Part shown: positions 8,158-58,290 of the stretch, in pieces
Position numbering within the stretch: position 1 is the first letter of the stretch
Layout of the letters: every line of letters begins with the position of its first letter
NCBI GenBank assembly: GCA_003223455.1
Contig: QHVE01000013.1
Location: 1 to 64,000 of the forward strand
Origin: Gemmatimonadota bacterium
GTDB lineage: Bacteria; Gemmatimonadota; Gemmatimonadetes; Gemmatimonadales; Gemmatimonadaceae
Length of the DNA: 64,000 bases
Direction: 5' to 3'
Position numbers and translations under genes: made by a program
Notes under the pieces: generated by a model
What the model saw: only the letters and a program-made list of their open reading frames with translations
Told to the model about the DNA's origin: nothing
The model's database searches: none

Positions 8158-8160
8158 TAT

Positions 8161-8235
8161 AGGTTCGGGCCCGAAAGGTTGCCGAACCTCCGACGCGCGT
8201 CCGATGGCGGAATCGCCGCTCGCTCCGGCGAGCGG
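8161..8235 (-). other. Two hairpins between lipB and uvrD
   Basis: An 8-bp stem (AGGTTCGG at 8161-8168 with CCGAACCT at 8182-8189) and an 8-bp stem with a TCCG tetraloop (CCGCTCGC at 8216-8223 with GCGAGCGG at 8228-8235) fill the gap. Neither has a T-tract on the minus strand, so they are not canonical intrinsic terminators. They could be attenuating or stabilising structures. Confidence 0.4.
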
Positions 8236-8243
8236 GCCGGAAA

Positions 8244-8957
8244 CTAGACCTCGACGATCGAAACCGCGGTCCGCGTCAGCTCGTCCGGGTCGAGGGTCGC
8301 GAGCTCGAGCGAGAACACCTCGCCGAATGCGTCGGCGACGCGCGTACGGACGTCGTGCTCGAGCGCCGCGCGCGCGTCATCCGGCGTGCCAAGCTCGCGC
8401 GCGACCGAGGTCATCTCCACCGCGGCGATGCCGCATGGGACGATGAGATCGAAGTAGGCGAGATCGGTCGTGACGTTGAGGGCGAAGCCGTGCCACGTCA
8501 CCCAGTCGCGCGCGTGGACGCCGATCGAGGCGAGCTTGCGTCCCTGCGTCCACACACCCGTGTAGCCCGTGCTCCGCTCTCCGACGATGCCGAGGGGGGC
8601 AACGGCGCGGATGAGCGCTTCCTCGACCTGCCGAAGGTACCAGTGCAGATCCAGCTTGTGGCGCTTGAGGTCGACGATCGGGTACCCGACGAGCTGCCCG
8701 GGCCCGTGGAAGGTGACGTCGCCGCCGCGCTCGACCTCGAACAGCTCGACACCGCGCGTGGCCAGCAGCGCGGGCGACGCCAGCAGATGGCGCTCCTTCG
8801 ACGAGCGCCCGAGCGTGACCACCGGTGGATGCTCGACGAGGAGCAGCAGGTCCTCGGCGATCTCGCCCCTGATCCGCGCCCGCGCGACCGCGCGCTGGAG
8901 CGCCAGCGCGTCCGCGTACGGCATCGTGCGGAGATCGGAGACGAGGAGCTGGGACAT
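8244..8957 (-). CDS. lipB: Lipoyl(octanoyl) transferase
   Basis: Transfers octanoyl groups from acyl carrier protein to the lipoyl domains of E2 and GcvH, the first step of endogenous lipoylation, in the cytosol. The 237-residue protein carries the family signature RGGDVTFHGPGQLVGYP at 77-93, the catalytic lysine in GRKLASIGV (Lys141) and the catalytic cysteine in LIVPCGI (Cys175). It is the last gene of the lipA-pdhABC-lpdA-lipB run, 31 bases after lpdA, which matches its substrate: the PdhC lipoyl domain encoded just upstream. Confidence 0.97.
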   Translation of the reverse strand: MSQLLVSDLRTMPYADALALQRAVARARIRGEIAEDLLLLVEHPPVVTLGRSSKERHLLASPALLATRGVELFEVERGGDVTFHGPGQLVGYPIVDLKRHKLDLHWYLRQVEEALIRAVAPLGIVGERSTGYTGVWTQGRKLASIGVHARDWVTWHGFALNVTTDLAYFDLIVPCGIAAVEMTSVARELGTPDDARAALEHDVRTRVADAFGEVFSLELATLDPDELTRTAVSIVEV

Positions 8958-8988
8958 GAGAAGAAGGTTAGAACCGTCAAATCGCTGT

Positions 8989-10392
8989 TCAAGCGTGAAT
9001 CATCTTGCCAAGCGAGTCGAGCGACGCTTCAGCCACCGCCTCGGCGAGCGTCGGGTGTGCGTGGATGGCCAAGTCCACCTCCTCCACCGTGTACTCGTTC
9101 GTGCGAGCGACGACGAGCTCGTGGATCAACTCGGTGGCGTGCGAGCCGACGATGTGAGCGCCGAGGATCTCTCCGTACTTGGCGCCACGAATGATCTTCA
9201 CGAAGCCCTCCGTCTCACCGGACGTGCGGGCGCGGCCGCTGGCCGAGAAGGGGAATTTTCCGACCTTGTACTCGATCTTGCGCTCCTTGCACTGCTGCTC
9301 GGTGAGTCCGACCGACGCCACCTCGGGGTGGCAGTAGGTCGCCCCGGGGATGTTCGTGTAGTCGAACAGATGGGGATGCTGGCCGGCGATCACTTCGGCC
9401 ACGACCACGCCCTCGCGCTCTCCCTTGTGCGCGAGCATCGGCGGACCGGCCACGTCACCGATCGCGTACAGCCCCTTCACGCTCGTCTCCATCCGCTCGC
9501 CGATCTTGATGAAGCCGCGATCGGTGAGTTGAACGCCCTGCTCCTTGAGCCCGATCTCCTCGATGTTCGGCGCGCGACCGGCCGCGACGAGCACGATGTC
9601 GACCTTGAGCTCCTTCTTCTCGCCGGCGGCTTCGACGGTCATGGTGACGGCATCCTTGCCGACCTTGACGTTCGAGATCTTGGCGCCGGTGAGGACGTCG
9701 ATCTTCCGCTTCTTGAACGCGCGCTCGACCTCCTTGGACGAATCCGCGTCCTCGACGGGCAGGATGTTCGGCATCACCTCGAGCAGCGTGACCTGAGATC
9801 CGAAGGCGGAGAAGACGTCGGCGAACTCGCAGCCGACGGCGCCCGCGCCGACGATGGCGATCGACTTCGGCGTCTTCTCCAGCACGAGCGCCTCGTCCGA
9901 CGAGATCACGGTCTTCTTGTTCAGCTCCAACCCGATCTGCGGCAGCCCCTTCACGCGCGAGCCGGTGGAGATGACGACCGCCTTCTTCGCGTCGTGCTTC
10001 TCCTCCTTTCCGTCCGCCGTCTTCACACTGACGGAGTTCTTGCCCGTGAGCTTCGCCGTGCCCTTGATCCAGGTGATCTTGTTCTTCTTGAACAGGAACT
10101 CGACCCCCTTCGAGTTCTGCGTGCTGACGGCGCGCGACCGCTTCATCGCCACGCCGTAGTCGAGCTTCACCTCGCCGGGCGTCACACCGAAGTCGGGCGC
10201 CTTCTTCATCTTCTCGGCGATGTATGCCGCCTCGAGCAGCGCCTTCGCCGGGATGCACCCCCAGATGACGCAGGTGCCGCCGAGCCCTTCGCGCTCGACG
10301 ACGGCGGTGTTGAGGCCGAGCTGGGCGGCGCGGATCGCGCCCACGTAGCCGGCGGGGCCGCCGCCGATGAAGATCACGTCGAACGAAGCCAT
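8989..10392 (-). CDS. lpdA: Dihydrolipoyl dehydrogenase (E3)
   Basis: FAD-dependent E3 reoxidises dihydrolipoamide with NAD+ in pyruvate dehydrogenase, and can also serve the glycine cleavage system encoded at 34-38 kb. In 467 residues one sees the FAD-binding GGGPAG at 10-15, the redox disulfide GGTCVIWGCIPAK (Cys41 and Cys46, the usual spacing), the NAD-binding GAGAVGCEFA in the middle and the C-terminal dimer-interface histidine in HAHPTLAEAV. The residues between the two cysteines (VIWG) differ from the common LNVG. It begins 2 bases after the pdhC stop. Confidence 0.97.
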   Translation of the reverse strand: MASFDVIFIGGGPAGYVGAIRAAQLGLNTAVVEREGLGGTCVIWGCIPAKALLEAAYIAEKMKKAPDFGVTPGEVKLDYGVAMKRSRAVSTQNSKGVEFLFKKNKITWIKGTAKLTGKNSVSVKTADGKEEKHDAKKAVVISTGSRVKGLPQIGLELNKKTVISSDEALVLEKTPKSIAIVGAGAVGCEFADVFSAFGSQVTLLEVMPNILPVEDADSSKEVERAFKKRKIDVLTGAKISNVKVGKDAVTMTVEAAGEKKELKVDIVLVAAGRAPNIEEIGLKEQGVQLTDRGFIKIGERMETSVKGLYAIGDVAGPPMLAHKGEREGVVVAEVIAGQHPHLFDYTNIPGATYCHPEVASVGLTEQQCKERKIEYKVGKFPFSASGRARTSGETEGFVKIIRGAKYGEILGAHIVGSHATELIHELVVARTNEYTVEEVDLAIHAHPTLAEAVAEASLDSLGKMIHA

Positions 10393-10394
10393 GG

Positions 10395-11756
10395 TCAGTA
10401 CACGAGCATGAGAGGATTCTCGATCAGGCGGCGAAGCGTCTGAAGGAACTTCGCGCCGACGGCGCCGTCGATGATGCGATGATCGCAGCTCATCGTGACG
10501 CGCACGCGGCTGCGCACGACGGGCTCGCCGTTCACGACGACGAGCTTCTCCTCGCTCGTGCCGATCGCGAGGATGCCGGCCTCGGGGGGATTGATGATCG
10601 CGGTGAACTGGTCGATGCCGAACATGCCGAGGTTGCTCACCGAGAAGGTCGAGCCGGTGAACTCCTCGGGCTTGAGCTTCCGCTCGCGTGCCCGCTTGGC
10701 GAGCTCCTTCGCCTCACGGGAGATCTCGCTCATGCGCTTGCGGTCGGCATCCCAGATGACGGGGACGATCAGCCCATCGTCGGTGGCGACGGCCATGCCG
10801 AGGTGCACGCGATTGTGGTACCGGATCTTGTCGTTGAGCCAGTGTGCGTTGACTTCCGGGTGCTGCGAGAGAGCGACGGCGGTCGCCTTCAGCAGCACGT
10901 CGTTGACGGAGACCTTGAACTGGTCACCAAGCTCCGTCATCGCCTTTCGCATCTCCATCACGCGCGTGAGGTCGAACTCCGCGGTGAGGTAGAACGTCGG
11001 GATGGGACCGATGGACTCGCCGAGGCGGCGCGCGATCGTCTTGCGGATGCTCGTGAGCGGCTCGTCGTGGTAGTCGCCCTCGCGCGGGATGACGGGTGCG
11101 CTCGGCGTGACGGCCGCGGCGCTCGGCGCGGCGGCGCCGGCGGCGGCAGCTGCTTCGATGTCGCGCTTGATGATGCGGCCGTTCGGTCCGGAGCCCTGCA
11201 CGCTGTGGAGGTCGAGCCCGCGCTCGCTGGCCAGGCGGCGGGCCAACGGGGACGAGCGAACGTCGCCGGTGGGCGGCTGGATGTTGCCACCCGAGGGAGC
11301 GGGCGCCGCCGGGCCGCCACCAGGAGAGGCGGGGGGCGTCGCGGCCACCTTCTGCTGCGGCGGTGTGCTGGCTTCGCCCTGCGATTCCTCGGCGCGACGC
11401 GGGATGGAGGAAGCGCCCGCGGTCTCCTGCTGCGTGGCGACCACTTTCTCCGGAGTCGGCGCGCCAGCCGCAGGGGCCGGAGCACCGGCGCCGGCGACTA
11501 GCGCATCGATGTTCTCGTCCGCCGTGGCGATCACACCGGCGAGTGTGCCGACCGGTGCAGTGTCGCCTTCGTTGATGAGCCGCTTCCGCAGCACGCCGTC
11601 GCCGCGTGCGACGAGCTCCATGATCGCCTTGTCCGTCTCGACCTCGGCGAGCGCCTCACCGCTCTTGACCGTGTCGCCTTCGTTCTTGAGCCACTTGACC
11701 AGGCGCCCCTCCTCCATCGTGGGGGAGAGCGCCTCCATGAAGACTTTGGTTGCCAT
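10395..11756 (-). CDS. pdhC: Pyruvate dehydrogenase E2, dihydrolipoamide acetyltransferase
   Basis: Core of the pyruvate dehydrogenase complex; accepts acetyl from E1 on lipoate and passes it to CoA. One N-terminal lipoyl domain has the lipoylated lysine in EVETDKAIMELV (Lys43). A long Ala/Pro/Gly linker (about 85-165) leads to a peripheral-subunit-binding domain (167-201, RSSPLARRLASERGL and GPNGRIIKRDI). The catalytic domain ends with SCDHRIIDG (His426, Asp430). The length of 453 residues suits a single-lipoyl E2. It lies between pdhB (18-base gap) and lpdA. Confidence 0.97.
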   Translation of the reverse strand: MATKVFMEALSPTMEEGRLVKWLKNEGDTVKSGEALAEVETDKAIMELVARGDGVLRKRLINEGDTAPVGTLAGVIATADENIDALVAGAGAPAPAAGAPTPEKVVATQQETAGASSIPRRAEESQGEASTPPQQKVAATPPASPGGGPAAPAPSGGNIQPPTGDVRSSPLARRLASERGLDLHSVQGSGPNGRIIKRDIEAAAAAGAAAPSAAAVTPSAPVIPREGDYHDEPLTSIRKTIARRLGESIGPIPTFYLTAEFDLTRVMEMRKAMTELGDQFKVSVNDVLLKATAVALSQHPEVNAHWLNDKIRYHNRVHLGMAVATDDGLIVPVIWDADRKRMSEISREAKELAKRARERKLKPEEFTGSTFSVSNLGMFGIDQFTAIINPPEAGILAIGTSEEKLVVVNGEPVVRSRVRVTMSCDHRIIDGAVGAKFLQTLRRLIENPLMLVY

Positions 11757-11774
11757 TGACGGTGACTCGGGGGG

Positions 11775-12755
11775 TCAGTCGAGATACATCACTTTCCGAA
11801 CGGCGGCGATCGCCTTCGGCAGGTCGGGCTTGGCGGCCTTCTCGAGGCCCTTCGCGTACGGCATCGGCGTGTCCGCCTGATGCACGCGCACGACCGGCGC
11901 GTCGAGGTAGTCGAAGCAGTCGCGCTGGATGTAATCCACCACCTGGGCGCCGACGCCGCACATCTCCCACCCTTCCTCGAGCACGACGGCGCGGTTGGTC
12001 TTCTTCACCGACTCGCCGATCGCCTCGACGTCCATCGGCCGAATGGTGCGCAGATCTACGACGTCGATGTTGATGCCCTCTTTCGCGAGCTGGTCGGCGG
12101 CCTGGAGGGCGACGAGCACCATCTTGCCGTGGGTGATGATCGAGCAGTGCTCGCCTTCGCGCTTGAGCTCCGCCTTGCCGAGCGGGATGAGATACTCCTC
12201 ATCGGGTACCTCGCCCTTGGTGTTGTAGAGCATCTCCCCCTCGAGCACGCAGACCGGATTGTCGTCGCGAATCGCGCTCTTGAGGAGCCCCTTCGCGTCG
12301 TACGGAGTGCCGGGCGCGATGACCTTGAGGCCAGGGATGTGCGCGAGCCAGCTCTCCCAGGCCTGCGAGTGCTGCGCCGAGAGCTGCAGGGCGGCGCCAT
12401 TCGGGCCGCGGAAGACGATCGGCATCTTGTACTGGCCGCCCGACATGTACAGCATCTTCGCGGCGGCGTTCACGACCTGATCGAGCGCGAGGAGCGCGAA
12501 GTTCCACGTCATGAACTCGATGACCGGGCGGAGCCCAACCATCGCCGCACCGACACCGACGCCGGCGAATCCGAGCTCGGTGATCGGCGTGTCGACGACG
12601 CGCATCTCGCCGAACTCCTGCAGGAATCCCTTGGACACCTTGTACGCGCCCTGATAGACGGCGACTTCCTCGCCCATGAGGAACACGCGATCGTCGCGCT
12701 GCATCTCCTCACGAATGGCGGCGCCGAGGGCGTCTCTGTATGTGATTACCGGCAT
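11775..12755 (-). CDS. pdhB: Pyruvate dehydrogenase E1 component, beta subunit
   Basis: Beta subunit of the heterotetrameric E1, which decarboxylates pyruvate with thiamine diphosphate. The protein is 326 residues, the normal size. It starts MPVITYRDALGAAIREEMQR and shows MGEEVAVYQGAYKVSKGF and a C-terminal transketolase domain with VVDLRTIRPMDVEAI and EEGWEMCGVGAQV. The partner pdhA is upstream, but the two are separated by 217 bases holding a large repeat, an unusual gap for E1 subunits, which are normally adjacent. Confidence 0.96.
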   Translation of the reverse strand: MPVITYRDALGAAIREEMQRDDRVFLMGEEVAVYQGAYKVSKGFLQEFGEMRVVDTPITELGFAGVGVGAAMVGLRPVIEFMTWNFALLALDQVVNAAAKMLYMSGGQYKMPIVFRGPNGAALQLSAQHSQAWESWLAHIPGLKVIAPGTPYDAKGLLKSAIRDDNPVCVLEGEMLYNTKGEVPDEEYLIPLGKAELKREGEHCSIITHGKMVLVALQAADQLAKEGINIDVVDLRTIRPMDVEAIGESVKKTNRAVVLEEGWEMCGVGAQVVDYIQRDCFDYLDAPVVRVHQADTPMPYAKGLEKAAKPDLPKAIAAVRKVMYLD

Positions 12756-12769
12756 TGATGAGCGAGAAA

Positions 12770-12970
12770 GTTGGGAACCAGAGAACTGGTGAACCAGGGA
12801 GTTAGTGAGTTGGGTAGCTGGTTAGCTGGTCGGTTGATTGGTGAGTTGAACTGCACGGGCCACTCAACCGGCGTACGACTCCACGTGGCGGCTCCACGCG
12901 GGTTGTGGCCGGGCCGTTCAGTTCACTAGTTCACCGACCAACTCACTAGCGATCCAATTCACCAACTCAC
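12770..12970. repeat. Octamer-repeat element, copy A (inside the pdh operon)
   Basis: The left arm (12770-12851) is made of degenerate TGAGTTGG/AGCTGGTT units. The right arm (12918-12969) has the complementary CCAACTCA units. A GC-rich centre lies between them, so the whole is a large imperfect inverted repeat. The 25 bases at 12921-12945 are identical to 37256-37280 in copy B. The right arm ends within a few bases of the pdhA stop codon. No ORF is supported in this stretch. Confidence 0.8.
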
Positions 12971-12972
12971 CC

Positions 12973-14004
<1,032 letters not shown>

Positions 14005-37119: not shown

Positions 37120-37130
37120 CGCTGCGGCGG

Positions 37131-37371
37131 TGAGTTGGTGAGTTGGTTGGTTGGTGAGCTGGTTGGTTGATCGGTGAGTTGAACGGCCCTGGCTACGAAC
37201 CAGGGTGGAGACCCCTCAGCGGGGCTTCCATGCCGGTTGTAGACAGGGCCGTTCCGTTCACTAGTTCACCGACCAACTCACCAACTCACCAACTCACCAA
37301 CTCACCAACTCACCAACTCACCAACTCACCAACTCACCAACTCACCAACTCACCAACTCACAACTCACCCG
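37131..37371. repeat. Octamer-repeat element, copy B, with 11 perfect CCAACTCA units
   Basis: The left arm (37131-37184) is GAGTTGGT-like. A GC-rich centre with internal hairpins (GGCCCTGG ... CCAGGG; CCCCTCAGCGGGG) leads to a 25-base stretch (37256-37280) identical to copy A. The right arm is an uninterrupted tract of eleven CCAACTCA octamers (37273-37360). It fills the gap between the convergent gcvP and gcvH genes, and the gcvH stop (37365-37367) lies in its last unit. Perfect 8-bp repeats are prone to slippage. Confidence 0.9.
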
Positions 37372-38629: not shown

Positions 38630-39229
38630 ATGGATATCGACGAAGGCATCGACGACGCCGCAGGCGTCGAGCAGTACGCGGCGCTGGTCCAGGAGCAGCT
38701 CGAGCTCGTCGGTGAGGATTCGTCGCGCGAGGGGCTGCTGCGGACCCCCGAGCGCGTCGCGAAAGCGATGCAGTTCCTCACGAGGGGCTACCGGCTTCGC
38801 GTGGAGGACGTGGTCGGTACAGGGATCTTCGCCGAAGAGCATCGGAACATGGTGATGGTGCGCGACATCGAGCTCTATTCGCTTTGCGAGCACCACATGC
38901 TCCCATTCTTCGGTCGCGCGCACGTGGCCTACATCCCGGATGGCCGGATCGTGGGACTCTCCAAGCTCCCGCGCATCGTCGACGTCTTCGCCCGCCGGCT
39001 CCAGGTGCAGGAGCGTCTCACCGAAGAGATCGCCGGGGCGATCGACGACGTGCTCGCCCCCCTCGGCGTGGGCGTCGTCATCGAGGCCTACCACCTCTGC
39101 ATGATGATGCGCGGGGTGGAGAAGCAGAACTCCCGCACGATCACCTCGGCGCTCCGAGGGGTGTTCCGGGATGATGCGCGGACGAGAGAGGAGTTCCTGT
39201 CGTTGGCGCATGCGAAGCTTGCCGTTTGA
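38630..39229 (+). CDS. folE: GTP cyclohydrolase I (first copy)
   Basis: Converts GTP to dihydroneopterin triphosphate. The 199-residue protein has the zinc ligands in [12 protein letters not shown] (Cys86, His88, His89) and [10 protein letters not shown] (Cys157), [15 protein letters not shown] near 34 and the C-terminal [15 protein letters not shown] second copy, clearly homologous throughout, is at 57628. This one stands alone beside tdk and coaE, so it likely serves folate synthesis, while the second serves the pterin operon. The stop sits inside a small hairpin (GCCGTT/AACGGC, 39221-39234). Confidence 0.96.
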
Positions 39230-42633: not shown

Positions 42634-43626
42634 TCAGGCCTTCCGCTTCGGGTCGGCGCACCAGCTCGTCTCGCCGCGCGCCATCTCGCGCCACTTCCCG
42701 TTCGTGTAGCGCAGGAAGAGGAGGAAGCTGTCCCCTCCATTCTCCCATCCCTCGAGCAGCAGCTCGTCCACACCATCGCCCGTGATGTCGGCGTGGTCGA
42801 TGTACCGGCGGAACTCGGGAAGCGAGTCGTCGGCGGAGTGGACGAACGTGGGTGCGTAGCCCCCCGCCGTGCTGTCGGCGAGGACGAAGAGGTGCCGCGG
42901 ATGTCCCTGAATCCCTCCACCGCGCTCGATGTACGAGGCCACGAGCGTGGGCGCGCGGGTCGCGCCGGTGTGGATCGCGAACACCGCGAGGTCGAGCCCT
43001 GCGCGCGCGTTGCGCGTGATGCCCTCGTGCTGCGAGACCTTGAGGGCGATGGCGCGCGCCGTGTCGATCGCGCTGCGGGGAACGGGACCACGGTCGGGAG
43101 CGGGAGCGAGCGGTTCGCTCGTGGCGATGCGCTCGAGCATCACATCGCTCGATTCGAACTTGCGCGGCACGAGCGCCGCGAGCGGCTTCACCGAGCGGCA
43201 ACGGGGGAGCTTGTAGAGTGGACCGGTCGCGTCCCACATCCCGCGTCGGATCTTCCCCTCGCCGTCCGACCGACCGTCTCGGTACAGCGAGAGCGACGTG
43301 CCGGGCCGGAAGTAGATGTGGTCGAAGTCGCGCCAGCCCTGCACGTCGAGCGAGACGGGCGCGACCTGTCCCTCGATCGTCGTGGCAACGGGAAGAATGC
43401 GCGGGTCGGAGCGGTCACCGAACAGCAGAAAGACGACGTTCGGCTTGTTGGCGAGGCTGGTCCGATGCACCACTTCGGCCGTCTCGGCGTTCTTGTCACA
43501 GCCGGCCGTGGCCGTTAGGATGCTGGCCAGTACCGCGACCCCGAAGATCGCCCGTAGCCGTCGGGCAATCGTCGGGAAGGTGCGTTCGCCGTGCGGGTCT
43601 CGCGAGGTGGGGTAGGTCTGATGCAT
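42634..43626 (-). CDS. Hypothetical lipoprotein
   Basis: A 330-residue protein with an N-terminal helix and lipobox LTATAGCDKN (cysteine near 43), preceded by an unusually long basic leader. The mature region contains VVFLLFGDRSDPRILPVATTI and a C-terminal FG-GAP-like stretch, HADITGDGVDELLLEGWENGGDSFLLF, which suggests a beta-propeller-type repeat. No family assigned. Its ATG shares a six-base ATGCAT with the divergent nurA ATG, so the true start of one of the two may be further in. Confidence 0.75.
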   Translation of the reverse strand: MHQTYPTSRDPHGERTFPTIARRLRAIFGVAVLASILTATAGCDKNAETAEVVHRTSLANKPNVVFLLFGDRSDPRILPVATTIEGQVAPVSLDVQGWRDFDHIYFRPGTSLSLYRDGRSDGEGKIRRGMWDATGPLYKLPRCRSVKPLAALVPRKFESSDVMLERIATSEPLAPAPDRGPVPRSAIDTARAIALKVSQHEGITRNARAGLDLAVFAIHTGATRAPTLVASYIERGGGIQGHPRHLFVLADSTAGGYAPTFVHSADDSLPEFRRYIDHADITGDGVDELLLEGWENGGDSFLLFLRYTNGKWREMARGETSWCADPKRKA

Positions 43627-44631
43627 TCGAGTCCTAGAGGCGACCCAGCACTGGACGTCCGCACGGTGAGGCGGCAGCTGGCTGCGCTCCTTCCGGACGC
43701 ACGTCCCACCAGTGAAGGAGAGGGGGCGCTGGAGCTCGCGTCCTCGAGAGTAGACGCCCCCCGGCTGATCAGCGCAACGGTTTTGGAGGGGTCCGGCCCG
43801 CTAAGAGCCCGAAGGGTCTTTCAGGCGGCCGTCGCGGGATTTCGCGGGTTCCTCGACGGTACCCAGCGGAGCCTCGTGGCCGGCTATCTGGCGGGGGGCG
43901 CACCCATCGTCGTGGGGCGGGCAGCCGCCGTCATCCGGGAACGGCGAAATCGGCGCATGCACACCTGGGGCGCACCTCTGGTCGAGATGCGCCTGTACGC
44001 CCCGCACGGTCTCGCAACGCCCACCGAATGGGATGCGCTGCGGCAGATCGCCGGACATCAGCTGGTGGACATCAGCGCCAGGGAGGGGGAGATCGATGGC
44101 GAGCACCCGCTGGCCCTTCGCGACGCCGCGTTCCACCGCGTCCAGGCGCATCGCGAGGCTCTGGAGCAGCGGCTGGCCGAACGGTGGTGCTCCACCGAGC
44201 ACGACCGCCTATTCATCGATGGAGGGATCAGCGGCAGCGACACGGTCGCCGTCTCGTCGTGCACGGTCGGCGTCGTGAAGAGCCACCGAACTCTCTACGC
44301 CGAAGGCGTAGCGCTGCAGACGATCCTCGGCCTTGGCCGTAGCGAACGGTCAAGCGTGTTCGAGGTCACCTCTCCTCGGCGCACGACGGTGGCGAGCTGG
44401 TACCTCCGGCTGCGCGATCCCATGGGGCGGGATCCGATGTGGGGACTCGTACGCGTCGAGATCGCGCGCCCCGATCCCGCCGAGCGGCACGCGATCGGCG
44501 ACCGCGCCGACGAGGTCTCGCGCTGGATCCTCGCCGAAGCGAGCCCGCTCGCCTTGCCGGACGCGCGGTGGGACAAGATGGTGTACGGGATTCGGGACTG
44601 TGAGGAGTTCTTGAGAGCAGTGACTCAGTGA
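43621..44631 (+). CDS. nurA: NurA-like 5'-3' nuclease
   Basis: A 336-residue protein from ATG 43621. Two NurA landmarks are visible: the first acidic site FRGFLDGTQRSLVAGYL (Asp79) with PIVVGRAAAVIRERRNRR after it, and a later LFIDGGISGSD (Asp200) followed by VGVVKSHRTLY and SSVFEVTSPRRTTVASWYLRL, the typical NurA core. In archaea, NurA is the nuclease partner of the HerA motor in end resection. HerA follows 91 bases downstream. A GTG at 43663 is an alternative start that would not overlap the divergent gene. Its last three codons and stop lie in a repeat of GTGACTCA units. Confidence 0.85.
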   Translation: MHSSPRGDPALDVRTVRRQLAALLPDARPTSEGEGALELASSRVDAPRLISATVLEGSGPLRARRVFQAAVAGFRGFLDGTQRSLVAGYLAGGAPIVVGRAAAVIRERRNRRMHTWGAPLVEMRLYAPHGLATPTEWDALRQIAGHQLVDISAREGEIDGEHPLALRDAAFHRVQAHREALEQRLAERWCSTEHDRLFIDGGISGSDTVAVSSCTVGVVKSHRTLYAEGVALQTILGLGRSERSSVFEVTSPRRTTVASWYLRLRDPMGRDPMWGLVRVEIARPDPAERHAIGDRADEVSRWILAEASPLALPDARWDKMVYGIRDCEEFLRAVTQ

Positions 44632-44716
44632 CTCAGTGACTCAGTGACCTCACCAACCCACCGATCAACCGACCAGCTCACCAACTCACCAGCTCACCAG
44701 CTCACCAACTCACCGC
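44620..44716. repeat. Octamer-repeat tract, copy C, between nurA and herA
   Basis: Three GTGACTCA units (44620-44643) start in the last nurA codons, then degenerate CTCACCAA/CAGCTCAC units run to 44716, 6 bases before the herA start. Only the right-arm orientation (CCAACTCA) is present, so this is a half copy of the element at 12.8 and 37.2 kb. It leaves no evident Shine-Dalgarno for herA. Confidence 0.8.
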
Positions 44717-44722
44717 AGTCTG

Positions 44723-46672
44723 ATGTCTTCAATCCTTGGCCGCGTCGTCGCGACGGAGCGGCGGCCGAACACGCCGCACGAGTTCCACTTCTGGACCGCA
44801 CTCGACTCCCCGGTGGGGATCGGGACGATCGTCCGCGTGGACGGACGCGACGCCGTCAACGGGACGGTGCCGCGCGTGTACGGGATCGTCACCGAGGGCT
44901 TCAGCTGGACCGATCTCGCGTCGCCGCTGCACGACGTCATGGGCTTCGACGGCAGTCCGAGCGCGGAGTCGCTCAGCCAGACCGACCGGGCGGAGATCCG
45001 GCTCTACACGGCGGCCGTGCTGCGCCACGTGCCCGAAGAGCCGCTTCAACCCGTGCCGATGGGCACCGTGTTTCTCGCCGACGAGCTGGATGTCAACATC
45101 GCGCTGCGCATGGACGGCTACCTCAAGCCCGGCGCGCGAACGGGGATCCCGATCGGTGTGTACCGTGCCGGTGGCACCGATGCGCCCATCTACCTCGACG
45201 CGGACTTCCTCATCGGTCCCGAGGCGGCGCACCTGAACATCAGCGGCGTCTCCGGCCTGGCGACGAAGACGAGCGCGGTGGAGTGGCTGCTGCAGTCGAT
45301 CTTCACGCACTTCCCGGCGCAGAAGGGGAGCGTCGCCGCCGTCTGCTTCAACGTGAAGGGCCCCGATCTCTGCTACCTCGACCAGCCGGGCGAGATCGAC
45401 GACGCCGACCGTGCGCTCTACGAGAAGTGCGCCGTCGCCCCGGTGCCGTTCGAGGACGTGCAGTATTTCGCACCGTACAAGTCGGACGGTGTCTCGCTCA
45501 ACACGCTCCGCTCGAACGAGGCATTGCTCGACAACGTGACGGCGCTCACGTGGGGGCTGCGCGAGGTGTTGCAGTACGCCGAGGTCCTGCTCAACAAGGA
45601 CGACGTCGACGCGAAGGCCGACGCATTGATCGACTTCATCAAGGAGAACGTCCTCGACAAGCGGTTCGTCGACCAGATGCTCGAGCGGCCACACACGGTC
45701 ACGTCGTTCGCGGACCTCGACGCGTGGTTCAAGGACGTGCTGCGCGCGCTGGAGAAGAAGGACGACCAGAGCTGGCGCACCCATCACGTGGCGACGATCC
45801 GAAAGGTGCGCAACCGGCTCTCGAACATCTCGCTCCGGTGCAAGGGGCTCGTCGCCGACGACGGCGCCACGAGCGATCTCCCGTTCGGGAGCTTTCAGGA
45901 TCGGACGGTGTATGTCATCGATGTCGCCGGCCTCGAGGAGGACGCGCAGGATCTGATCTTCGCCCGCGTGGTGACGAAGCTGCGCGAGCACCTCGAGAAG
46001 CGGGATCTGGGCGTGCAGCACGTCGTGGTGTTCGTCGACGAGCTGAACAAGTACGCGCCGGGTGACGGCCCGGAGACCTACGTTCGCAAGATGCTGCTCG
46101 ACATCGCGGAGCGGGGCCGGTACCTGGGACTCGTCCTGTTTGCCGCGCAGCAGTTCCGCTCGCAGGTGCACCGCCGCGTCGTCGGCAACTCCGGTACGGC
46201 GCTGTACGGCCGGATGGACGGCGACGAGTTGGCGACGCCGGGCTACGCGGTGCTCAGTCCGGCGATCAAGACGAAGCTCGCCACGTTGGAGAAGGGACAG
46301 CTGATGGTGCGTCATCCCCACTTCACACAACCGATCTTCGTCCGATTTCCGCGCCCGTCGGTCATGCGCGGCCGCGACGGCGTGAGCCAGTATCCGGCGG
46401 CGCAGGCGCCGTCGCTCCACGCCGCGGTGCTGCGCACGCTGCGCACGCTCGATCCGTCGCTCACGCTCGGCTGGCTGCAGGATGTGACCCAGCTCGCGAC
46501 CGACGACGAGATCCTGCGCGCGCGGAACGACGTCGTGCGCGCACGTCCCGGTGACGTGCGCCGCGAGTTCAGCAAGCACTTCCGCGCCGCCGTCGCGCCC
46601 CGCACCGCCGTGCGCCCGGACGCACCGTCGCCTCTTCCCGCCGCTCCCGCGGACGATCCCTACGGCTTCTGA
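44723..46672 (+). CDS. herA: HerA-like hexameric DNA translocase (FtsK/HerA superfamily), variant P-loop
   Basis: A 649-residue ATPase starting MSSILGRVVATERRPN. The N-terminal HAS-barrel (about 1-100) is followed by the RecA-like core. The P-loop region reads SGVSGLATKTS (174-184), with Lys182 and Thr183 kept but the usual GxGK replaced by ATK. Walker B is VVVFVDELNKYAP (Asp439/Glu440), and RGRYLGLVLFAAQQFRSQVHRRV is the sensor/arginine-finger region. HerA hexamers pump DNA for NurA. Here it stands between nurA and the Mre11/Rad50 genes, the archaeal arrangement. The C-terminus is Ala/Pro-rich. Confidence 0.9.
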   Translation: MSSILGRVVATERRPNTPHEFHFWTALDSPVGIGTIVRVDGRDAVNGTVPRVYGIVTEGFSWTDLASPLHDVMGFDGSPSAESLSQTDRAEIRLYTAAVLRHVPEEPLQPVPMGTVFLADELDVNIALRMDGYLKPGARTGIPIGVYRAGGTDAPIYLDADFLIGPEAAHLNISGVSGLATKTSAVEWLLQSIFTHFPAQKGSVAAVCFNVKGPDLCYLDQPGEIDDADRALYEKCAVAPVPFEDVQYFAPYKSDGVSLNTLRSNEALLDNVTALTWGLREVLQYAEVLLNKDDVDAKADALIDFIKENVLDKRFVDQMLERPHTVTSFADLDAWFKDVLRALEKKDDQSWRTHHVATIRKVRNRLSNISLRCKGLVADDGATSDLPFGSFQDRTVYVIDVAGLEEDAQDLIFARVVTKLREHLEKRDLGVQHVVVFVDELNKYAPGDGPETYVRKMLLDIAERGRYLGLVLFAAQQFRSQVHRRVVGNSGTALYGRMDGDELATPGYAVLSPAIKTKLATLEKGQLMVRHPHFTQPIFVRFPRPSVMRGRDGVSQYPAAQAPSLHAAVLRTLRTLDPSLTLGWLQDVTQLATDDEILRARNDVVRARPGDVRREFSKHFRAAVAPRTAVRPDAPSPLPAAPADDPYGF

Positions 46673-46685
46673 TGGGGTCGCGGGC

Positions 46686-47579
46686 ATGACCGCCGGAGTC
46701 GTCGACCAGCGTGGGTCGAGCTCCCCACGACGCGTGCGTGCGATCGCCGTGCGCGGAGCGCTCGCGTGTGCGGCGCTGGTCGGCCTGACCCGCGGCGGCG
46801 CGGCCCAGACCGCATCGGCGAACCGGATCATGCTGCGGCTGCACCCGCGCATGGGCGACACGCTGCACACGCGGCTCGAGCAGCTCACCGAGATCACCAC
46901 GTCGCGCAACGGAAGCGCGGCGGCGACACCGATGACGACGAGCGTCATCGTGCTCGCGCGCACGATCGTGCAGGCATCGCGCAAGGCGACGACGACGGTG
47001 CTGACCGTCGTGGACTCGGCCGAGGTGCACAGCTCCGACGCCCACGGCCCGGCGATGTCGGCGCAGGCGGAGCGGGTGCTTCGGGGCCAAAGGATGCTCG
47101 TGCAGCTCGCCGAGGACGGATCGGTGGAGAGCGCGGCCGACGCCCGCGGTGTCGCCGTGCCCCGCGACGTCGCCGAGGCGATGGCGGCGATGCCCTCCGT
47201 GCTCCCACGCCGGCCGGTCGCGGTGGGCGAGCGCTGGCAGCGCGAGATTCCGCTCCCGTCGGCCGGCCCGATCGGATCCACACGGAGCGCCGTGGTCCGC
47301 GCCGAGTTCCGGTTCGACTCGCTGAGCGGCAACGGCGAGCTCGCGTTCGTCTCGATGCATGGCCAGATCGCCTCGGACGCGGACGTGCGCGCCGTGGAGA
47401 TGTCCGGCACCATGACGGGCACGATGCGGATCGACCGGATGCGCGGGTGGATGACCGAGTCGTTCTTCACGCTACTCATCCGCTCGGCGGTCGCGCCGCC
47501 GAGCAGCAGCGTGGGGATGGCGCCGATGAAGTTCGTCACCAGGGTCTCCCAGCGTCTCCGGACCATGGACAAGCGGTGA
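46686..47579 (+). CDS. Exported protein of unknown function within the repair cassette
   Basis: A 297-residue protein from ATG 46686 (MTAGVVDQRGSSSPRRVRAI), 13 bases after herA. A long basic leader is followed by a hydrophobic stretch ALACAALVGLTRGGAAQ, so a signal peptide with Ala-Gln cleavage near residue 36 is likely. The mature part is beta-rich with many Thr/Ser/Val (TSVIVLARTIVQASRKATTTVLTVVDS) and ends RVSQRLRTMDKR. It resembles DUF6263-type periplasmic proteins only loosely. A secreted protein is unexpected among cytosolic DNA repair genes; it could be a passenger. Confidence 0.8.
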   Translation: MTAGVVDQRGSSSPRRVRAIAVRGALACAALVGLTRGGAAQTASANRIMLRLHPRMGDTLHTRLEQLTEITTSRNGSAAATPMTTSVIVLARTIVQASRKATTTVLTVVDSAEVHSSDAHGPAMSAQAERVLRGQRMLVQLAEDGSVESAADARGVAVPRDVAEAMAAMPSVLPRRPVAVGERWQREIPLPSAGPIGSTRSAVVRAEFRFDSLSGNGELAFVSMHGQIASDADVRAVEMSGTMTGTMRIDRMRGWMTESFFTLLIRSAVAPPSSSVGMAPMKFVTRVSQRLRTMDKR

Positions 47580-47609
47580 TCCGCCACTAGACTTTGACGG
47601 TGCGGCGGA

Positions 47610-48878
47610 GTGAGCCAACTTCCGCGCGCGCAACTGCTTGGCGCGCCGCGACCTCCTCGCCCACCCCGGCCCCCCGAGCATCTGCGCCTCGTCCACCTCG
47701 CCGACCTGCACCTCGGTTACCGCCAGTACCAGCGGCTGACTCCGCGCGGGATCAATCAGCGCGAGGCGGACGTGGCGCAGTCGTTCACGCGCGCCGTGGA
47801 CAAGATCATCGAGCTCGCGCCCGAGCTCGTGCTCATCGCCGGCGACGTGTTCCACCAGGTACGTCCGACGAACACGGCGATCCTCCACGCGTACATCCAG
47901 TTCGCGCGGCTGCGAGCATCACTGCCGCGCACCGAAGTCGTGATGGTCGCCGGCAACCACGACACCCCGCGCTCCGCGGAGACCGGCTGCATCCTGCGGC
48001 TGTTCACGCCACTCGGGATCCACGTCGTCGAGGCCGAGCCGCAAGCGCTGGAGTTTCCGTCGCTCGATCTGTCGCTGCTCGCCGTGGCGGACAATCAGTA
48101 CCAGCGCCCGAAGCTCGTGCCGGCGGGCACCCGCCGGTGGAACGTGCTGCTGCTGCACGGAGAGGTCGAGGGAATGCTCGGTCCCTTCGCGGCGACGCAC
48201 GAGTTGGCGACGCAGGAGATCCCGCAGGACGAGCTGCATGGCTCGGTATGGGACTACATCGCGCTCGGGCACTACCACGTCTACCGACGGATCGCACCGA
48301 ACCAGTTCTACAGCGGGTCGCTCGACTACACGAGCACGAACACGTGGGGCGAGCGGATCGAGGAGGAGATGGCTGGGGTGTCGGGGAAGGGAATCATCGA
48401 GCACGATCTCGTGTCCGGTGCACACACCTTCCACCGCCTCACGCCGTCGCGCGAGTTCGTCGACCTGCCGATGGTGTCGGCGCGCGGGCTCACGACCGAG
48501 GAAGTGAACGCGCGCATCGCCGACGTCGTGGAGTCGTGTCCCGGCGGGATCGACGACAAGGTGGTGCGGCTCGTCGTGCGCGATCTGCCGCGGCACATCA
48601 CGCGGCAGCTCGCCCACAAGCAGCTGCGCGAGTTCCGGCGGCGCGCCCTGCACTTCCATCTCGACACCCGGCGTCCGGAGATCATCCGCTCGGTGGGGCA
48701 TGGCGCACCGGGCCGCCGGCCGTCGCTCGCCGATTTCGTGCGCGACAAGCTGCGCGAGCGCCTCGTGCCGTCGGACGTGGACCGTGACGCGCTGGTCGCG
48801 CTCGGCCTGCGCTATCTGAAGGACGCCGAGGAGCGCGACAGCCCCTCCGCGGCGGTGCCGCCGGGCATCGGGGCGTAG
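47610..48878 (+). CDS. sbcD: Mre11/SbcD-family nuclease subunit
   Basis: A 422-residue metallophosphoesterase from GTG 47610. Metal ligands are in LVHLADLHLGY (Asp32, His34), IAGDVFHQ (Asp79), VAGNHDTP (Asn116-His117), LLLHGEVEG and ALGHYHVY. With Rad50/SbcC it trims protein-blocked and hairpin DNA ends. An N-terminal Pro/Arg-rich leader (12-24) is not found in E. coli SbcD, and the C-terminal helical region ends SPSAAVPPGIGA. The gene adjoins rad50 with no gap, and the cassette with HerA-NurA is archaeal-like. Confidence 0.94.
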   Translation: MSQLPRAQLLGAPRPPRPPRPPEHLRLVHLADLHLGYRQYQRLTPRGINQREADVAQSFTRAVDKIIELAPELVLIAGDVFHQVRPTNTAILHAYIQFARLRASLPRTEVVMVAGNHDTPRSAETGCILRLFTPLGIHVVEAEPQALEFPSLDLSLLAVADNQYQRPKLVPAGTRRWNVLLLHGEVEGMLGPFAATHELATQEIPQDELHGSVWDYIALGHYHVYRRIAPNQFYSGSLDYTSTNTWGERIEEEMAGVSGKGIIEHDLVSGAHTFHRLTPSREFVDLPMVSARGLTTEEVNARIADVVESCPGGIDDKVVRLVVRDLPRHITRQLAHKQLREFRRRALHFHLDTRRPEIIRSVGHGAPGRRPSLADFVRDKLRERLVPSDVDRDALVALGLRYLKDAEERDSPSAAVPPGIGA

Positions 48879-51281
48879 ATGCGGCTCAACAGCCTTCGCC
48901 TCACGAACTTCCGCCAGCACTGCGACACGTTCGTCACGTTCGACAGCGGGCTGACGGGGATCATCGGCGCGAACGGGTCGGGCAAGTCGACGCTGCTCGA
49001 GGCGATCGCGTGGGCGCTGTATGGGCAGGACGCGGCGCGCGGCAAGAAGGAGACGCTGCGTTCGCTGCGCGCGGGGCCGAACGCGCGCGTGAAGGTGGAG
49101 CTCGACTTCGAGCTGGGAGGACATCGCTATCGCGTCGAGCGCGGGCTGACGACGGCCGAGCTCTTCCTCGATGGGTCGGACGCGCCGATCGCGAACTCTC
49201 TCACGGGAGTCTCGGAGCTGCTTCGTCGCCGGAAGGAGCTCGACGTGATGGCGGCGATGGCGCCGTCGGAGCGCGCGCAGTTCCTCTCGCGCGTGCTCGG
49301 CTACGAGCGCCTGCGCACCGCCCAGCGCCTCGTGCGCGAGCGCGCGCGGCTGATCGCTGCCGAGGCGGCGGGTGTCCGTGCTGCCATGCCCGAGGCGGGG
49401 AGCATCGACCGCCTGCACGCCGACGCGAGCGAGCGGCTGACGCGCGCGAATGCGCGGGCGCGTGAGAGCGCCGAGCGGCGCGATCGCGCCGGCGCGACCC
49501 TGGCCGACATCGTGCCGCGCTGGCTCGCCGCGCAGCGCGAGCGCGAGCAGTTGCAGGAGGCGCTCGCCGAGCTGCGGGTCGCCGAGAGCGAGTCGGCGGC
49601 GTATTCACGCGACGTCGAGCGGGTCGAGCGCGAGCTCGCCGACGTGCAGTCCGCGGAGCAGGAGCTGCAGCGGCTGGCCGAAGAGCTCGCGCCGCTCGCG
49701 GCGTTGAGCGACGAGCTCGTGCGGCTCGACCGCATGGCGAGCGAGGACGGGCGACGGCGCGCGCTCCTCGACACCGAGCGTGCGCTCGAGGAGGAAGTCC
49801 GCTCGCTGCGCGAGCGCCGCGCACGCATCGAGACCGCGCCGGCGCTCGAGGAAGAGGTCACGGTGGAGCTGGAGCAGAAGCGCGCGCTGCTCGAGCTGGT
49901 CGAGGGAGAGCTCGAGGCCAAGCGCACCGAATGGGTGCGCGATCGCCAGGAGGCCGAGACGAAGCGCCGCGCGCTGCTCGACCAGTACGCCGAGGCGCGA
50001 GAGCATCGCGAGCAGCTCGTGAAGGCGGGCGAGGATGGCGAGTGCCCGACCTGCGAGCGGCCGCTGCACGACCATTATCGCACGGTGCTCGACCGGCTGG
50101 ACGAGCAGATCGAGGCACTCGTCGCCGACGGGAAATACTTCAAGTCGCGCCTCGAGCAGCTCGAGGAGATGCCGGTCGAGGTGCGCGAGCTGGACGAGCG
50201 CCGCCGCGCCGCGTTCGACGAGACGAGCAAGCTCGAACGGCGACTGGCGAAGGTGCAGCTCGCGGTGCAGGAGCTCGCCCAGCTCTCGCGCGATCTTCAG
50301 AGCAAAGAGCAGCGCTTCCATCAGGTGCGGCACGATCGGGAGCAGATCCCCAGTGGCTACGACGCGGCGCGGCATACGCAGGCCCGTCGCGAGCTGGAGC
50401 GCCTGCGACCACTCGATGCGCGGGCGACGCGGCTCGCGGCGCAGCTCGAGCGGCGCGCGGTGCTCGAGTCGGAGCACCAGCGCGCAGCCGCGGGGCTCGC
50501 GGCGGCACAGGCCCGCGCCGCGGCGCTCTCGGCGCGCCGCGACGTGCTCTCGTTCTCCGAGCAGAGCTACGCCGAGCTCCGCGCGCAGCACGATCGTGCG
50601 GCGACCGATCTGCGCACTGCCGAGCTGGATGCCGTCGCCGCGACGGGCGAGGCGGCCGGCGCGCAGCAGGCGCTTGGGCGCGCCGATCAGATGCGCGCCG
50701 AGCTGCAGCGCGCGCGCGCGCAGCTCGATCAGCTCGAGCGCGAGAAGCGGCTGCACGACGAGCTCGATCGCGCCTACACCGATCTGCGCACGGACCTGAA
50801 CGTTCAGCTGCGTCCCGAGATGAGCGAGCTCGCGAGCGCATTCCTCACCGAGCTCACCGACGCGCGATACGATGAGCTCGAGCTCGACGACAGTTACAAC
50901 CTGACGGTGATCGAGGACGGCGTGCCGAAGCCGGTCATCTCCGGTGGCGAGCAGGACATCGCGAACCTCTGCCTGCGACTCGCCATCTCGCAGATGATCG
51001 CCGAGCGGGCGGGGCAGAGCTTCTCGCTGCTCATCCTCGACGAGGTGTTCGGCTCCCTCGACGAGGCGCGGCGCCAGAACGTCGTGGAGCTGCTGCGCGG
51101 ACTGCAGGACCGGTTCGAGCAGGTCATCCTCATCACGCACATCGAGCAGGTGCGCGAGGGACTCGACCGCGTGATCAACGTGCGCTACGACGAGGAGACG
51201 GGGATGTCGGTCGTGACGCAGTCCGATGCGAGCGGCGTCGACGATACGCCGCTGCTCGCCGGTGCGGGCGCGGAGGAGTGA
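48879..51281 (+). CDS. sbcC: Rad50/SbcC-family SMC-like ATPase
   Basis: An 800-residue protein starting directly after the sbcD stop. The N-terminal Walker A is GANGSGKST (30-38). Two antiparallel coiled coils of charged Glu/Arg/Leu heptads (about 150-680) are joined by a zinc hook at GECPTCERPLH (Cys389, Cys392). The C-terminal signature is ISGGEQDIANLCLRL (about 687) and Walker B is LLILDEVFGSLD (Asp721/Glu722). The length is closer to archaeal Rad50 (about 880) than to E. coli SbcC (1048). It tethers DNA ends for Mre11. The GNAT gene overlaps its stop by one base. Confidence 0.95.
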   Translation: MRLNSLRLTNFRQHCDTFVTFDSGLTGIIGANGSGKSTLLEAIAWALYGQDAARGKKETLRSLRAGPNARVKVELDFELGGHRYRVERGLTTAELFLDGSDAPIANSLTGVSELLRRRKELDVMAAMAPSERAQFLSRVLGYERLRTAQRLVRERARLIAAEAAGVRAAMPEAGSIDRLHADASERLTRANARARESAERRDRAGATLADIVPRWLAAQREREQLQEALAELRVAESESAAYSRDVERVERELADVQSAEQELQRLAEELAPLAALSDELVRLDRMASEDGRRRALLDTERALEEEVRSLRERRARIETAPALEEEVTVELEQKRALLELVEGELEAKRTEWVRDRQEAETKRRALLDQYAEAREHREQLVKAGEDGECPTCERPLHDHYRTVLDRLDEQIEALVADGKYFKSRLEQLEEMPVEVRELDERRRAAFDETSKLERRLAKVQLAVQELAQLSRDLQSKEQRFHQVRHDREQIPSGYDAARHTQARRELERLRPLDARATRLAAQLERRAVLESEHQRAAAGLAAAQARAAALSARRDVLSFSEQSYAELRAQHDRAATDLRTAELDAVAATGEAAGAQQALGRADQMRAELQRARAQLDQLEREKRLHDELDRAYTDLRTDLNVQLRPEMSELASAFLTELTDARYDELELDDSYNLTVIEDGVPKPVISGGEQDIANLCLRLAISQMIAERAGQSFSLLILDEVFGSLDEARRQNVVELLRGLQDRFEQVILITHIEQVREGLDRVINVRYDEETGMSVVTQSDASGVDDTPLLAGAGAEE

Positions 51282-52255
51282 TGGCGAGCGTACGCAGCTG
51301 GCGCCCGCTCGCCCAGATCGAGGGGCCGCAGATGGCCAAGCTCGAGGAGATCCCCGCGCTCAACGTCGTGTTCAGCGACGCGTTCACGGAGCGCTATCGG
51401 CGCGACGGCATGGTCGGCGTGCGCGTGCCGTACCTCAACCCCGCCGTGTGGCGCTACGCGATCGAGGACGCGGCGGGTGGCGCGATGGTGTGGCGCGATG
51501 CGCGCGGCGAGATCGCGGCGTTCAACATGGTGCACCGCTCCGGCGTCGAAGGGTGGATGGGCCCTCTCGCCGTGCGCACGGAGTACCAGGGGAGCGGCGT
51601 CGGCAAGGAGGTCGTCGAGCAGGGGATCGCGTGGCTCAAGCGCGAGGGCGCCACGGTGATCGGCCTCGAGACGATGCCGCGGACGATGGACAACATCGGG
51701 TTCTATTCCTCCCTCGGCTTCCTGCCGGGTCGTCTCACGATCACGCTCACGCTCGACTCGGCGGCGTCGGATCGCGCACCGGAGCTGCTGGGCCGCCTCG
51801 GCGTGCGGGAGCGCGAAGACGCCATCGCCGAAGCGCGCGCGCTCGTGGACTCGCTCGCACCGGGCTACGACTTCACGCGCGAGCTCGATCTGACGGAGTC
51901 GCTGGCGCTGGGCGATACGGTGGTGGTCCGCGACGGCGGCCGCATCCTCGGCCTCGCGCTTTGCCACACCGCGCCGCTCGTGGAGGGCCGCACGCGCGAG
52001 GAGCTGCGTGTGCTCAAGCTCGCGCTGGCGGACGACTCGGCGCTCGACGCGATGCTGCGCGCACTCTGCGACTTCGCCAAGCGGAGCGGTACCCGCCGCG
52101 TCGCGCTGCGCGTGCAGGGCGAGTATCCGGGCATGTACCACACGATGGTGGCGGCGGGAGCGCGGGTGCGCTGGACCGACCTCCGCATGGCGCTCGCCGG
52201 GTACGAGGAGCGCAAGAACGGCCGAGGCGTTGTGCTGTCGAACTGGGAGATCTGA
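51281..52255 (+). CDS. Tandem GNAT-domain acetyltransferase
   Basis: A 324-residue protein from ATG 51281 in the TGATG overlap with rad50, with GGAGGAG as ribosome site. The first GNAT domain has the acetyl-CoA loop MGPLAVRTEYQGSGVGKEVV (V-x-x-x-Q-x-x-G-x-G) and LETMPRTMDNIGFYSSLGF. The second half (about 190-310) repeats the fold in degenerate form (RILGLALCHTAPL). It is co-translated with the repair cassette; whether it modifies repair proteins or is a passenger is open. Acceptor unknown. Confidence 0.88.
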   Translation: MASVRSWRPLAQIEGPQMAKLEEIPALNVVFSDAFTERYRRDGMVGVRVPYLNPAVWRYAIEDAAGGAMVWRDARGEIAAFNMVHRSGVEGWMGPLAVRTEYQGSGVGKEVVEQGIAWLKREGATVIGLETMPRTMDNIGFYSSLGFLPGRLTITLTLDSAASDRAPELLGRLGVREREDAIAEARALVDSLAPGYDFTRELDLTESLALGDTVVVRDGGRILGLALCHTAPLVEGRTREELRVLKLALADDSALDAMLRALCDFAKRSGTRRVALRVQGEYPGMYHTMVAAGARVRWTDLRMALAGYEERKNGRGVVLSNWEI

Positions 52256-57236: not shown

Positions 57237-57650
57237 ATGCCCGTCGTCACCGTGACTCGCCGTCTGCACTTCAACGCGGCGCACCGAGTGCACAATCCCG
57301 CGCTCTCCGACGAGGAGAACGAACATCTGTTCGGGAAGTGCAACAACCCGAACTGGCACGGCCACAACTACATCCTCGACGTGTCGGTGCGCGGCCCCGT
57401 GGACGATCGCACCGGCTACGTCCTCGACCTCGCCGCGCTGAAGCGGATCGCCGAGGAGCGTGCCGTCGATCGCATCGACCACAAGAACTTCAACCTCGAC
57501 GTCCCGTTCATGCGCGGCGTGATCCCGACCTCCGAGAACATCGTCGTCGGGATCTGGCGCGAGCTCGAGCCGGCGATCCGACCGGGCAAGCTCGTCAAGC
57601 TCGTGCTCTGGGAGACGCCGAACAACTATGTCGAGTACACCGGTGAGTAG
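57237..57650 (+). CDS. 6-pyruvoyltetrahydropterin synthase (PTPS)
   Basis: A 137-residue zinc enzyme of the PTPS/QueD fold. The zinc histidines are in [10 protein letters not shown] and WHGHNY. A cysteine is in [13 protein letters not shown], and the C-terminal glutamate is in [16 protein letters not shown], a layout very like eukaryotic PTPS rather than QueD. It would convert dihydroneopterin triphosphate to 6-pyruvoyltetrahydropterin. The next gene makes its substrate (folE copy) and the third may reduce its product. Confidence 0.93.
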
Positions 57651-58290
57651 CCGCGCTTCCGAATCCGACATCCGGTCGGCGCTGCACGCGTCCATCCACC
57701 GTGTGGACGTCGACGAGCTGCCGATCGTCGACGGCGACTATGCCGCGCTCGTGCGGCAGCAACTCGCGCTGCTCGGCGAGGATCCGGAGCGCGAGGGGCT
57801 CGTCCGCACGCCCGATCGCGTCGCGAAGGCGATGCACTTCCTCACCGCGGGCTACGACATGACGGTCGAGAAGATCGTCGGCAGCGCGCTGTTCGAGGAG
57901 GAGCACGAGAACATGGTGATGGTGCGCGACATCGAGCTCTACTCCCTGTGCGAGCACCACATGCTCCCGTTCTTCGGGAAGGCCCACGTCGCCTACATCC
58001 CCAACGGCCGGATCGTCGGGCTCTCCAAGCTGCCGCGCATCGTCGAGATGTTCGCGCGGCGGCTCCAGGTGCAGGAGCGGCTCACCGAACAGGTGGCGTC
58101 GGCGATCGACGACGTCCTCGCGCCGCGCGGGGTCGGCGTGGTGATCGAGGCGTTCCACATGTGCATGATGATGCGCGGCGTCGAGAAGCAGAACTCGCGC
58201 ACGATCACGTCGGCGCTGCGCGGCGTCTTCCGCGACGACGGGAAGACCCGCGACGAGTTCCTGCGCCTCGCGTACGCGACGGCGCGGTGA
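57628..58290 (+). CDS. folE: GTP cyclohydrolase I (second copy)
   Basis: Makes dihydroneopterin triphosphate from GTP. From ATG 57628 the protein is 220 residues; a GTG at 57643 is an alternative start, giving 8 rather than 23 bases of overlap with PTPS. Zinc ligands are Cys108, His110, His111 ([10 protein letters not shown]) and Cys179 ([10 protein letters not shown]). It is very similar to the copy at 38630 in the whole catalytic part but has a longer N-terminus. Position between PTPS and an SDR suggests service to tetrahydrobiopterin-type synthesis. Confidence 0.95.

Follow-up and report, generated by a model that had tools for sequence, protein, structure and literature searches.

Gene content of the locus

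The locus described here occupies positions 43621-52255 of the + strand in a 64,000-nucleotide stretch of DNA from a soil-type bacterium of the Gemmatimonadota. This whole stretch, hereafter the window, is contig G000:C66 of a 4.96-Mb assembly in 127 contigs, and its closest relatives in our named collection are metagenome-assembled genomes of the Gemmatimonadaceae. Six genes follow one another. The first, nurA (43621-44631, in a reading frame opened by a GTG at 43591), encodes a predicted NurA nuclease of 336 amino acids, and the second, herA (44723-46672), a predicted HerA-type double-stranded DNA translocase of 649 amino acids with a HAS-barrel and a RecA-like domain. They are followed by a gene for an exported DUF6263 protein (46686-47579), by sbcD/mre11 (47610-48878) and sbcC/rad50 (48879-51281), encoding a nuclease and an ATPase, and by a gene for a GNAT-family acetyltransferase (51278-52255; PF00583, 3e-14).

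A first-pass annotation, made from the letters of the window, had named five of these genes, and their place, their strand and their identities as NurA, HerA, SbcD, SbcC and GNAT were right. Its statement that they lie with almost no gaps holds for the second half of the locus: the sbcC ATG comes directly after the stop codon of sbcD, and the sbcC stop is in turn overlapped by the GNAT start, so that these three genes are probably translationally coupled. It does not hold for the first half, where the DUF6263 gene had been overlooked and where 91 bp separate nurA from herA. This gap is filled with octamer tandem repeats (CAGTGACT and ACCAGCTC/ACCAACTC, 44618-44714), the nurA stop codon lying inside the first array. 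Such repeats (ACCAACTC with variants, and CAGTGACT) are also found at 12799-12968, 37129-37169 and 37272-37369, and a 16-mer has 18 matches where 0.02 are expected.

NurA and HerA of the bacterial type

The first-pass annotation had proposed a search with the Pfam NurA model, PF09376, as a check on the first gene. The window NurA protein alone has no Pfam match up to E=10, and PF09376 matches nothing anywhere in the window's genome; taken by itself, this result spoke against the assignment, and it was reversed by profile and structure comparison. Indeed, a profile built from the alignment of 52 family members (A1) matches Deinococcus radiodurans NurA (drNurA, 7f6d_H) with E=6e-22 and Thermotoga maritima TM1739 with E=1e-12. 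When the members from the Gemmatimonadota families f5-f7 are left out, the profile finds the same two proteins more weakly (1.4e-4 for TM1739 and 1.9e-4 for drNurA). No archaeal NurA was matched by sequence with either profile. The AlphaFold model of the window protein (predicted local distance difference test score 92.1, predicted template modelling score 0.90) has the RNase H-like NurA fold, and its first seven matches in the PDB are all NurA-type nuclease chains. They are headed by drNurA (9.5e-12), followed by TM1739, Sulfolobus solfataricus NurA (E=1.8e-6, a match of fold only), TdpB (E=5.5e-5) and Thermococcus kodakarensis NurA.

Over the structural alignment the window protein is only about 17% identical to drNurA, and the active site is shared: D79, K220 and R316 align with D53, K201 and R309, whose mutation kills the activity of drNurA (PMC9960219), and are kept in 49, 52 and 51 of the 52 family members, respectively. 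With fold, profile and active site in agreement, we judge the PF09376 miss to be a limit of that model, which matches 9 of the 52 members when E values up to 1 are admitted (the best being 1.4e-6) and thus misses nurA in most of these genomes. By sequence profile and predicted structure, the first gene is assigned to the NurA nucleases of bacterial type. By analogy with the Deinococcus protein, it is predicted to bind HerA and to act as a Mn-dependent 5′-3′ nuclease.

For the second gene, too, the Pfam search suggested at the outset failed, as the window HerA protein alone has no Pfam match up to E=10; this was overturned by matches to D. radiodurans HerA (drHerA, 7f6d), both with phmmer (E=1e-41) and with the family profile A2 (E=1.6e-158). 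The latter match spans profile positions 4-561, which cover the HAS-barrel and the RecA-like domain. Archaeal T. kodakarensis HerA, in contrast, reaches only E of about 0.2 with the same profile, and the first-pass description of the cassette as archaeal-style has to be abandoned. The P-loop GVSGLATKTS (K182, T183), D215 and the Walker B pair D439/E440 correspond to K175, T176, D220 and D487/E488 of drHerA, and these positions are invariant in 32/32 members. We therefore class HerA, on its sequence, as a putative double-stranded DNA translocase of the bacterial (Deinococcus/Thermotoga) and not the archaeal type, predicted by analogy to form a hexamer that moves along duplex DNA.

Altogether, the NurA-HerA pair of D. 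radiodurans (7f6d, 7wrw; PMC9960219) is the best match for both window proteins, which share the D/K/R triad of NurA with it and, in HerA, the Walker B motif and an unusual P-loop, G[VI]SG[LV]ATKTS. A difference is that HerA of f1 and f2, the two main families within the window's order, has a C-terminus that extends beyond the drHerA-like part. In the window, sbcD-sbcC adjoin nurA-herA.

SbcD and SbcC

SbcD matches Metallophos in Pfam (1.5e-9) and, below their cut-offs, the NCBIfam models Mre11 (6e-20) and sbcd (6e-17), as well as the archaeal Mre11 structure 3auz (2e-16); the motifs D-x-H, GD, GNHD and GHxH are present by eye. SbcC is short, with 800 amino acids, and matches SMC_N (2e-22) and SbcC_Walker_B (4e-9) in Pfam, the NCBIfam Rad50 model below its cut-off (5e-52) and Rad50 ATPase structures (3e-25). 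It has the two Rad50 ATPase halves, a coiled coil and, as read by eye, a CPTC zinc hook (50043-50054). The best PDB relatives of both proteins are thus Mre11 and Rad50 structures. The homologies of NurA, HerA, SbcD and SbcC, together with their active sites, bear out the look of a DNA-end-processing cassette that had first drawn attention to the locus.

Conservation, distribution and descent

Conserved gene order in related genomes had been anticipated, and it was found. Among 57 loci, which comprise f1, f2 and one f4 genome, 44 show the order NurA-HerA-SbcD-SbcC-GNAT outright, and where a few loci seem to have a swapped order, this is an artefact of overlapping stop-to-stop frames. Families f5-f7, which belong to the same class, have strongly divergent proteins (about 30% for HerA), but their four core genes still stand together in 13 of 15 loci, either as HerA-SbcD-SbcC-NurA (7) or as NurA-HerA-SbcD-SbcC (6). 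With the order preserved in dozens of relatives, the clustering is far beyond chance.

The named collection adds genomes of Gemmatimonadota, Armatimonadota and Cyanobacteria/Gastranaerophilales, with the full four-gene order in five armatimonadotal loci (L163, L164, L241, L242, L259) and three cyanobacterial ones (L264, L265, L270); HerA was detected in 20/81 Armatimonadota and 7/79 Cyanobacteria genomes sampled. The first-pass view that bacterial SbcCD normally stands alone is contradicted by these phyla and by a published precedent: in Oceanithermus profundus, sbcD-sbcC were reported in 2017 beside nurA-herA, as nurA-hepA-sbcD-sbcC (PMC5448004). The likeness lies in the gene order as published, with sbcD and sbcC coming after a bacterial herA. 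While that case concerned a single thermophile and was read as a recruitment of SbcD and SbcC (PMC5448004), the arrangement described here is order-wide and occurs in three phyla.

HerA is present in 82 of the 121 genomes of our phylum sample and in 147 of the 179 genomes of the window's family, in the latter nearly always in a single copy. In a HerA tree of bacterial sequences, each Gemmatimonadota family groups together; one clade, next to Armatimonadota, unites f1, f2 and f4, and f5-f7 fall in a second HerA lineage, which is shorter and includes cyanobacterial sequences. Because the tree follows the families, inheritance looks vertical. The two Gemmatimonadota lineages (L045-L051 and L092-L099 versus L031-L044) are deeply split, each having a NurA and SbcCD cluster of its own, which suggests separate acquisitions or an old replacement.

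These data bear on two other origins of the locus. One is that an archaeal operon was imported recently. Thermophilic archaea also have these four genes in a cluster, and SbcD and SbcC find their best NCBIfam matches in archaeal Mre11 and Rad50 models, all of them below cut-off. The reports on the HerA-Mre11-Rad50-NurA operon of Sulfolobus and Pyrococcus describe the same four families with the same division of labour as we propose below (PMC4351679, PMC2288612). The window HerA and NurA nonetheless belong to another, non-archaeal subfamily, S. solfataricus NurA being matched by fold only. Their nearest relatives are Deinococcus and Thermotoga proteins, and the HerA tree, within its bacterial sampling, is family-coherent with Armatimonadota neighbours; we consider such an import hardly credible.

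The other is that the locus serves in defence against phages. Motors of the HerA type paired with nucleases, and ATPases resembling Rad50, are frequent in defence systems, as in TdpAB, MADS and HerA-Sir2/DUF4297. Within the window, the PADLOC models mad3 and mad8 match SbcC (3e-33) and HerA (5e-9), and TdpB turns up as a structural neighbour of NurA, as given above. SbcC, however, matches 140 PADLOC models, mostly generic ATPases, and we rejected a defence reading of these matches as generic ATPase similarity. A defence system would be expected to have a patchy, mobile distribution, whereas HerA has the wide family distribution, stable neighbours and family-wise tree just described, unlike mobile islands, and the nearest relatives of the proteins are Deinococcus NurA-HerA and Mre11-Rad50 and not defence proteins. 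A defence function thus appears improbable.

Relation to RecBCD and AddAB

We compared the distribution of HerA with that of RecBCD and AddAB in the 121-genome phylum sample, and counted RecC in the 179 family genomes. AddAB or RecBCD is present in 34 of the 39 HerA-negative genomes, while both are absent from 51 of the 82 HerA-positive ones. Within the order (f1 and f2), both are absent from 51 of 65 carriers, and a query with AddB gives the same picture, as far as its narrower reach allows. In the family, RecC occurs in 17/32 HerA-negative versus 29/147 HerA-positive genomes, and in 13/18 versus 17/87 at a completeness of at least 90%. Fisher tests on the HerA/RecC counts are significant but ignore kinship.

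The scarcity of RecBCD and AddAB that the first-pass annotation had looked for thus exists across the order, while the window's own genome departs from it. A recBCD locus is present there on contig C54 (L198, G000:C54:1-20000, 4044-13227), with recD intact, recC split over two reading frames and recB over three. Since coding bias persists across the breaks, they reflect recent decay or sequencing error, and this genome is not a clean case of absence. A congener (G025) has NurA-HerA and no match for RecC or PDDEXK_1.

NurA and HerA are lost jointly. Fourteen of 14 HerA-negative genomes tested are also without NurA and 12 of them keep SbcD, while NurA is present in all 11 genomes that HerA retrieved from beyond the window's sample. 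In four near-complete genomes (G019, G055, G068, G078), all of which have RecC, the locus reads lipoprotein - DUF6263 - sbcD - sbcC - GNAT, nurA-herA being cleanly absent. In a tree of SbcD-SbcC-GNAT, the losses are nested in a RecBCD-bearing clade, whose sister (G111) is without RecBCD and keeps NurA-HerA; this suggests that RecBCD was gained first and nurA-herA lost later.

It could be argued that the four DNA-maintenance genes are merely adjacent, nurA-herA being one unit and sbcD-sbcC another, with no joint action. Indeed, nurA-herA is lost without sbcD-sbcC, the exported DUF6263 protein intervenes between the pairs, and Thermus nurA-herA lies in a metabolic context without sbcCD (PMC5448004). 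The adjacency nevertheless recurs in two Gemmatimonadota orders, Armatimonadota, Cyanobacteria, Oceanithermus and archaea, and archaeal Mre11 is reported to bind HerA (PMC2288612). We regard independent units as unlikely, and favour an operon whose genes may be co-transcribed and whose proteins may act together.

Accompanying genes

The DUF6263 protein matches PF19777 (E=2e-6) and has a signal-peptide-like N-terminus; its predicted fold is beta-rich, with a weak resemblance to lipid carriers. It stays with sbcD after the loss of nurA-herA and many clusters lack it, which points to a passenger, probably a bystander. Some f2 genomes have two DUF6263 copies inside the DNA-repair cluster. The GNAT gene downstream of sbcC is kept in the window's order only, and was not detected at this position in f5-f7 Gemmatimonadota or in Armatimonadota.

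The upstream border of the locus is a divergent lipoprotein-like gene (42634-43626, - strand) whose 5′ end abuts nurA. Part of the family, with genomes that have lost nurA-herA among them, keeps it in this position. The two reading frames overlap at their apparent 5′ ends (43621-43626), and thus at least one true start codon probably lies further downstream. Elsewhere in the window, the translations show by eye two GTP cyclohydrolase I-like reading frames that share a strand and lie about 19 kb from each other (38630-39229 and 57628-58290), the second adjoining a 6-pyruvoyl-tetrahydropterin-synthase-like one (57237-57650).

A proposed role in DNA-end resection

We propose, with a probability of roughly three in four, that the locus is a chromosomal, vertically inherited DNA-end-resection operon that, in most of the Gemmatimonadales, stands in for RecBCD/AddAB. 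SbcC-SbcD (Rad50-Mre11) would bind a broken end and trim or open it. A HerA hexamer would then load and drive the duplex into a dimer of NurA bound to the HAS-barrel face of the hexamer. The strands would split at NurA, where the 5′ strand would be cut, so that RecA receives a 3′ single strand; this polarity is taken by analogy from D. radiodurans NurA-HerA (PMC9960219). We infer a likeness to RecBCD/AddAB in that a motor and a nuclease would resect double-strand ends to 3′ tails, while the motor and nuclease families themselves are unrelated. To our knowledge, NurA-HerA-SbcCD has no equivalent of Chi recognition. Once RecBCD had been acquired, nurA-herA would become dispensable and be deleted as a unit, with sbcD-sbcC left behind.

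Several observations weigh against this proposal. First, eight loci have HerA-SbcD-SbcC without a detectable NurA nearby (L039, L041, L042, L079, L157, L159, L160, L162), and a NurA search at relaxed thresholds gave nothing convincing there. Second, four genomes (G039, G040, G073, G089) carry NurA-HerA together with an apparently intact RecC, and some NurA-HerA genomes also carry AddAB; the systems are therefore not exclusive. Conversely, 15 family genomes, several of them incomplete, have neither HerA nor RecC, these two alone being counted. Third, in an independent-pairs comparison only one of four pairs differs, and no HerA/RecC association was found within genus g4, where RecBCD is nearly universal. 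With the pairs comparison indecisive and no association in g4, it is the overall pattern that points to replacement, and the set may functionally replace RecBCD/AddAB. Finally, the deletion of nurA or herA in D. radiodurans has a modest or even beneficial effect on survival (PMC9960219), and a repair role is thus not to be taken for granted.

A wider proposal can be made, tentatively and at slightly less than even odds: that NurA-HerA-SbcCD is the primary RecBCD-equivalent of the whole order, ancient and bacterial and not imported from archaea, and was displaced in several lineages of the family after the gain of RecBCD. We found no paper on this cluster in Gemmatimonadota in the open literature. 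New here are the absence of AddAB and RecBCD from most carriers in the order, the joint loss of nurA-herA and the enrichment of the losses within the family in RecBCD carriers.

Deinococcus NurA-HerA mutants show little effect or even fare better, possibly since the work is done by RecJ-RecQ. The bacterial NurA-HerA pair and its mechanism have been described in that organism, and its importance in vivo is disputed (PMC9960219). The Gemmatimonadales are a large group with a conserved set, mostly without AddAB or RecBCD, and the nested losses in RecBCD-carrying lineages make it testable, by genetics and by evolution, whether the set is a true substitute for RecBCD. If the wider proposal is true, the order would represent a natural replacement experiment, in which RecBCD and NurA-HerA-SbcCD are interchangeable.

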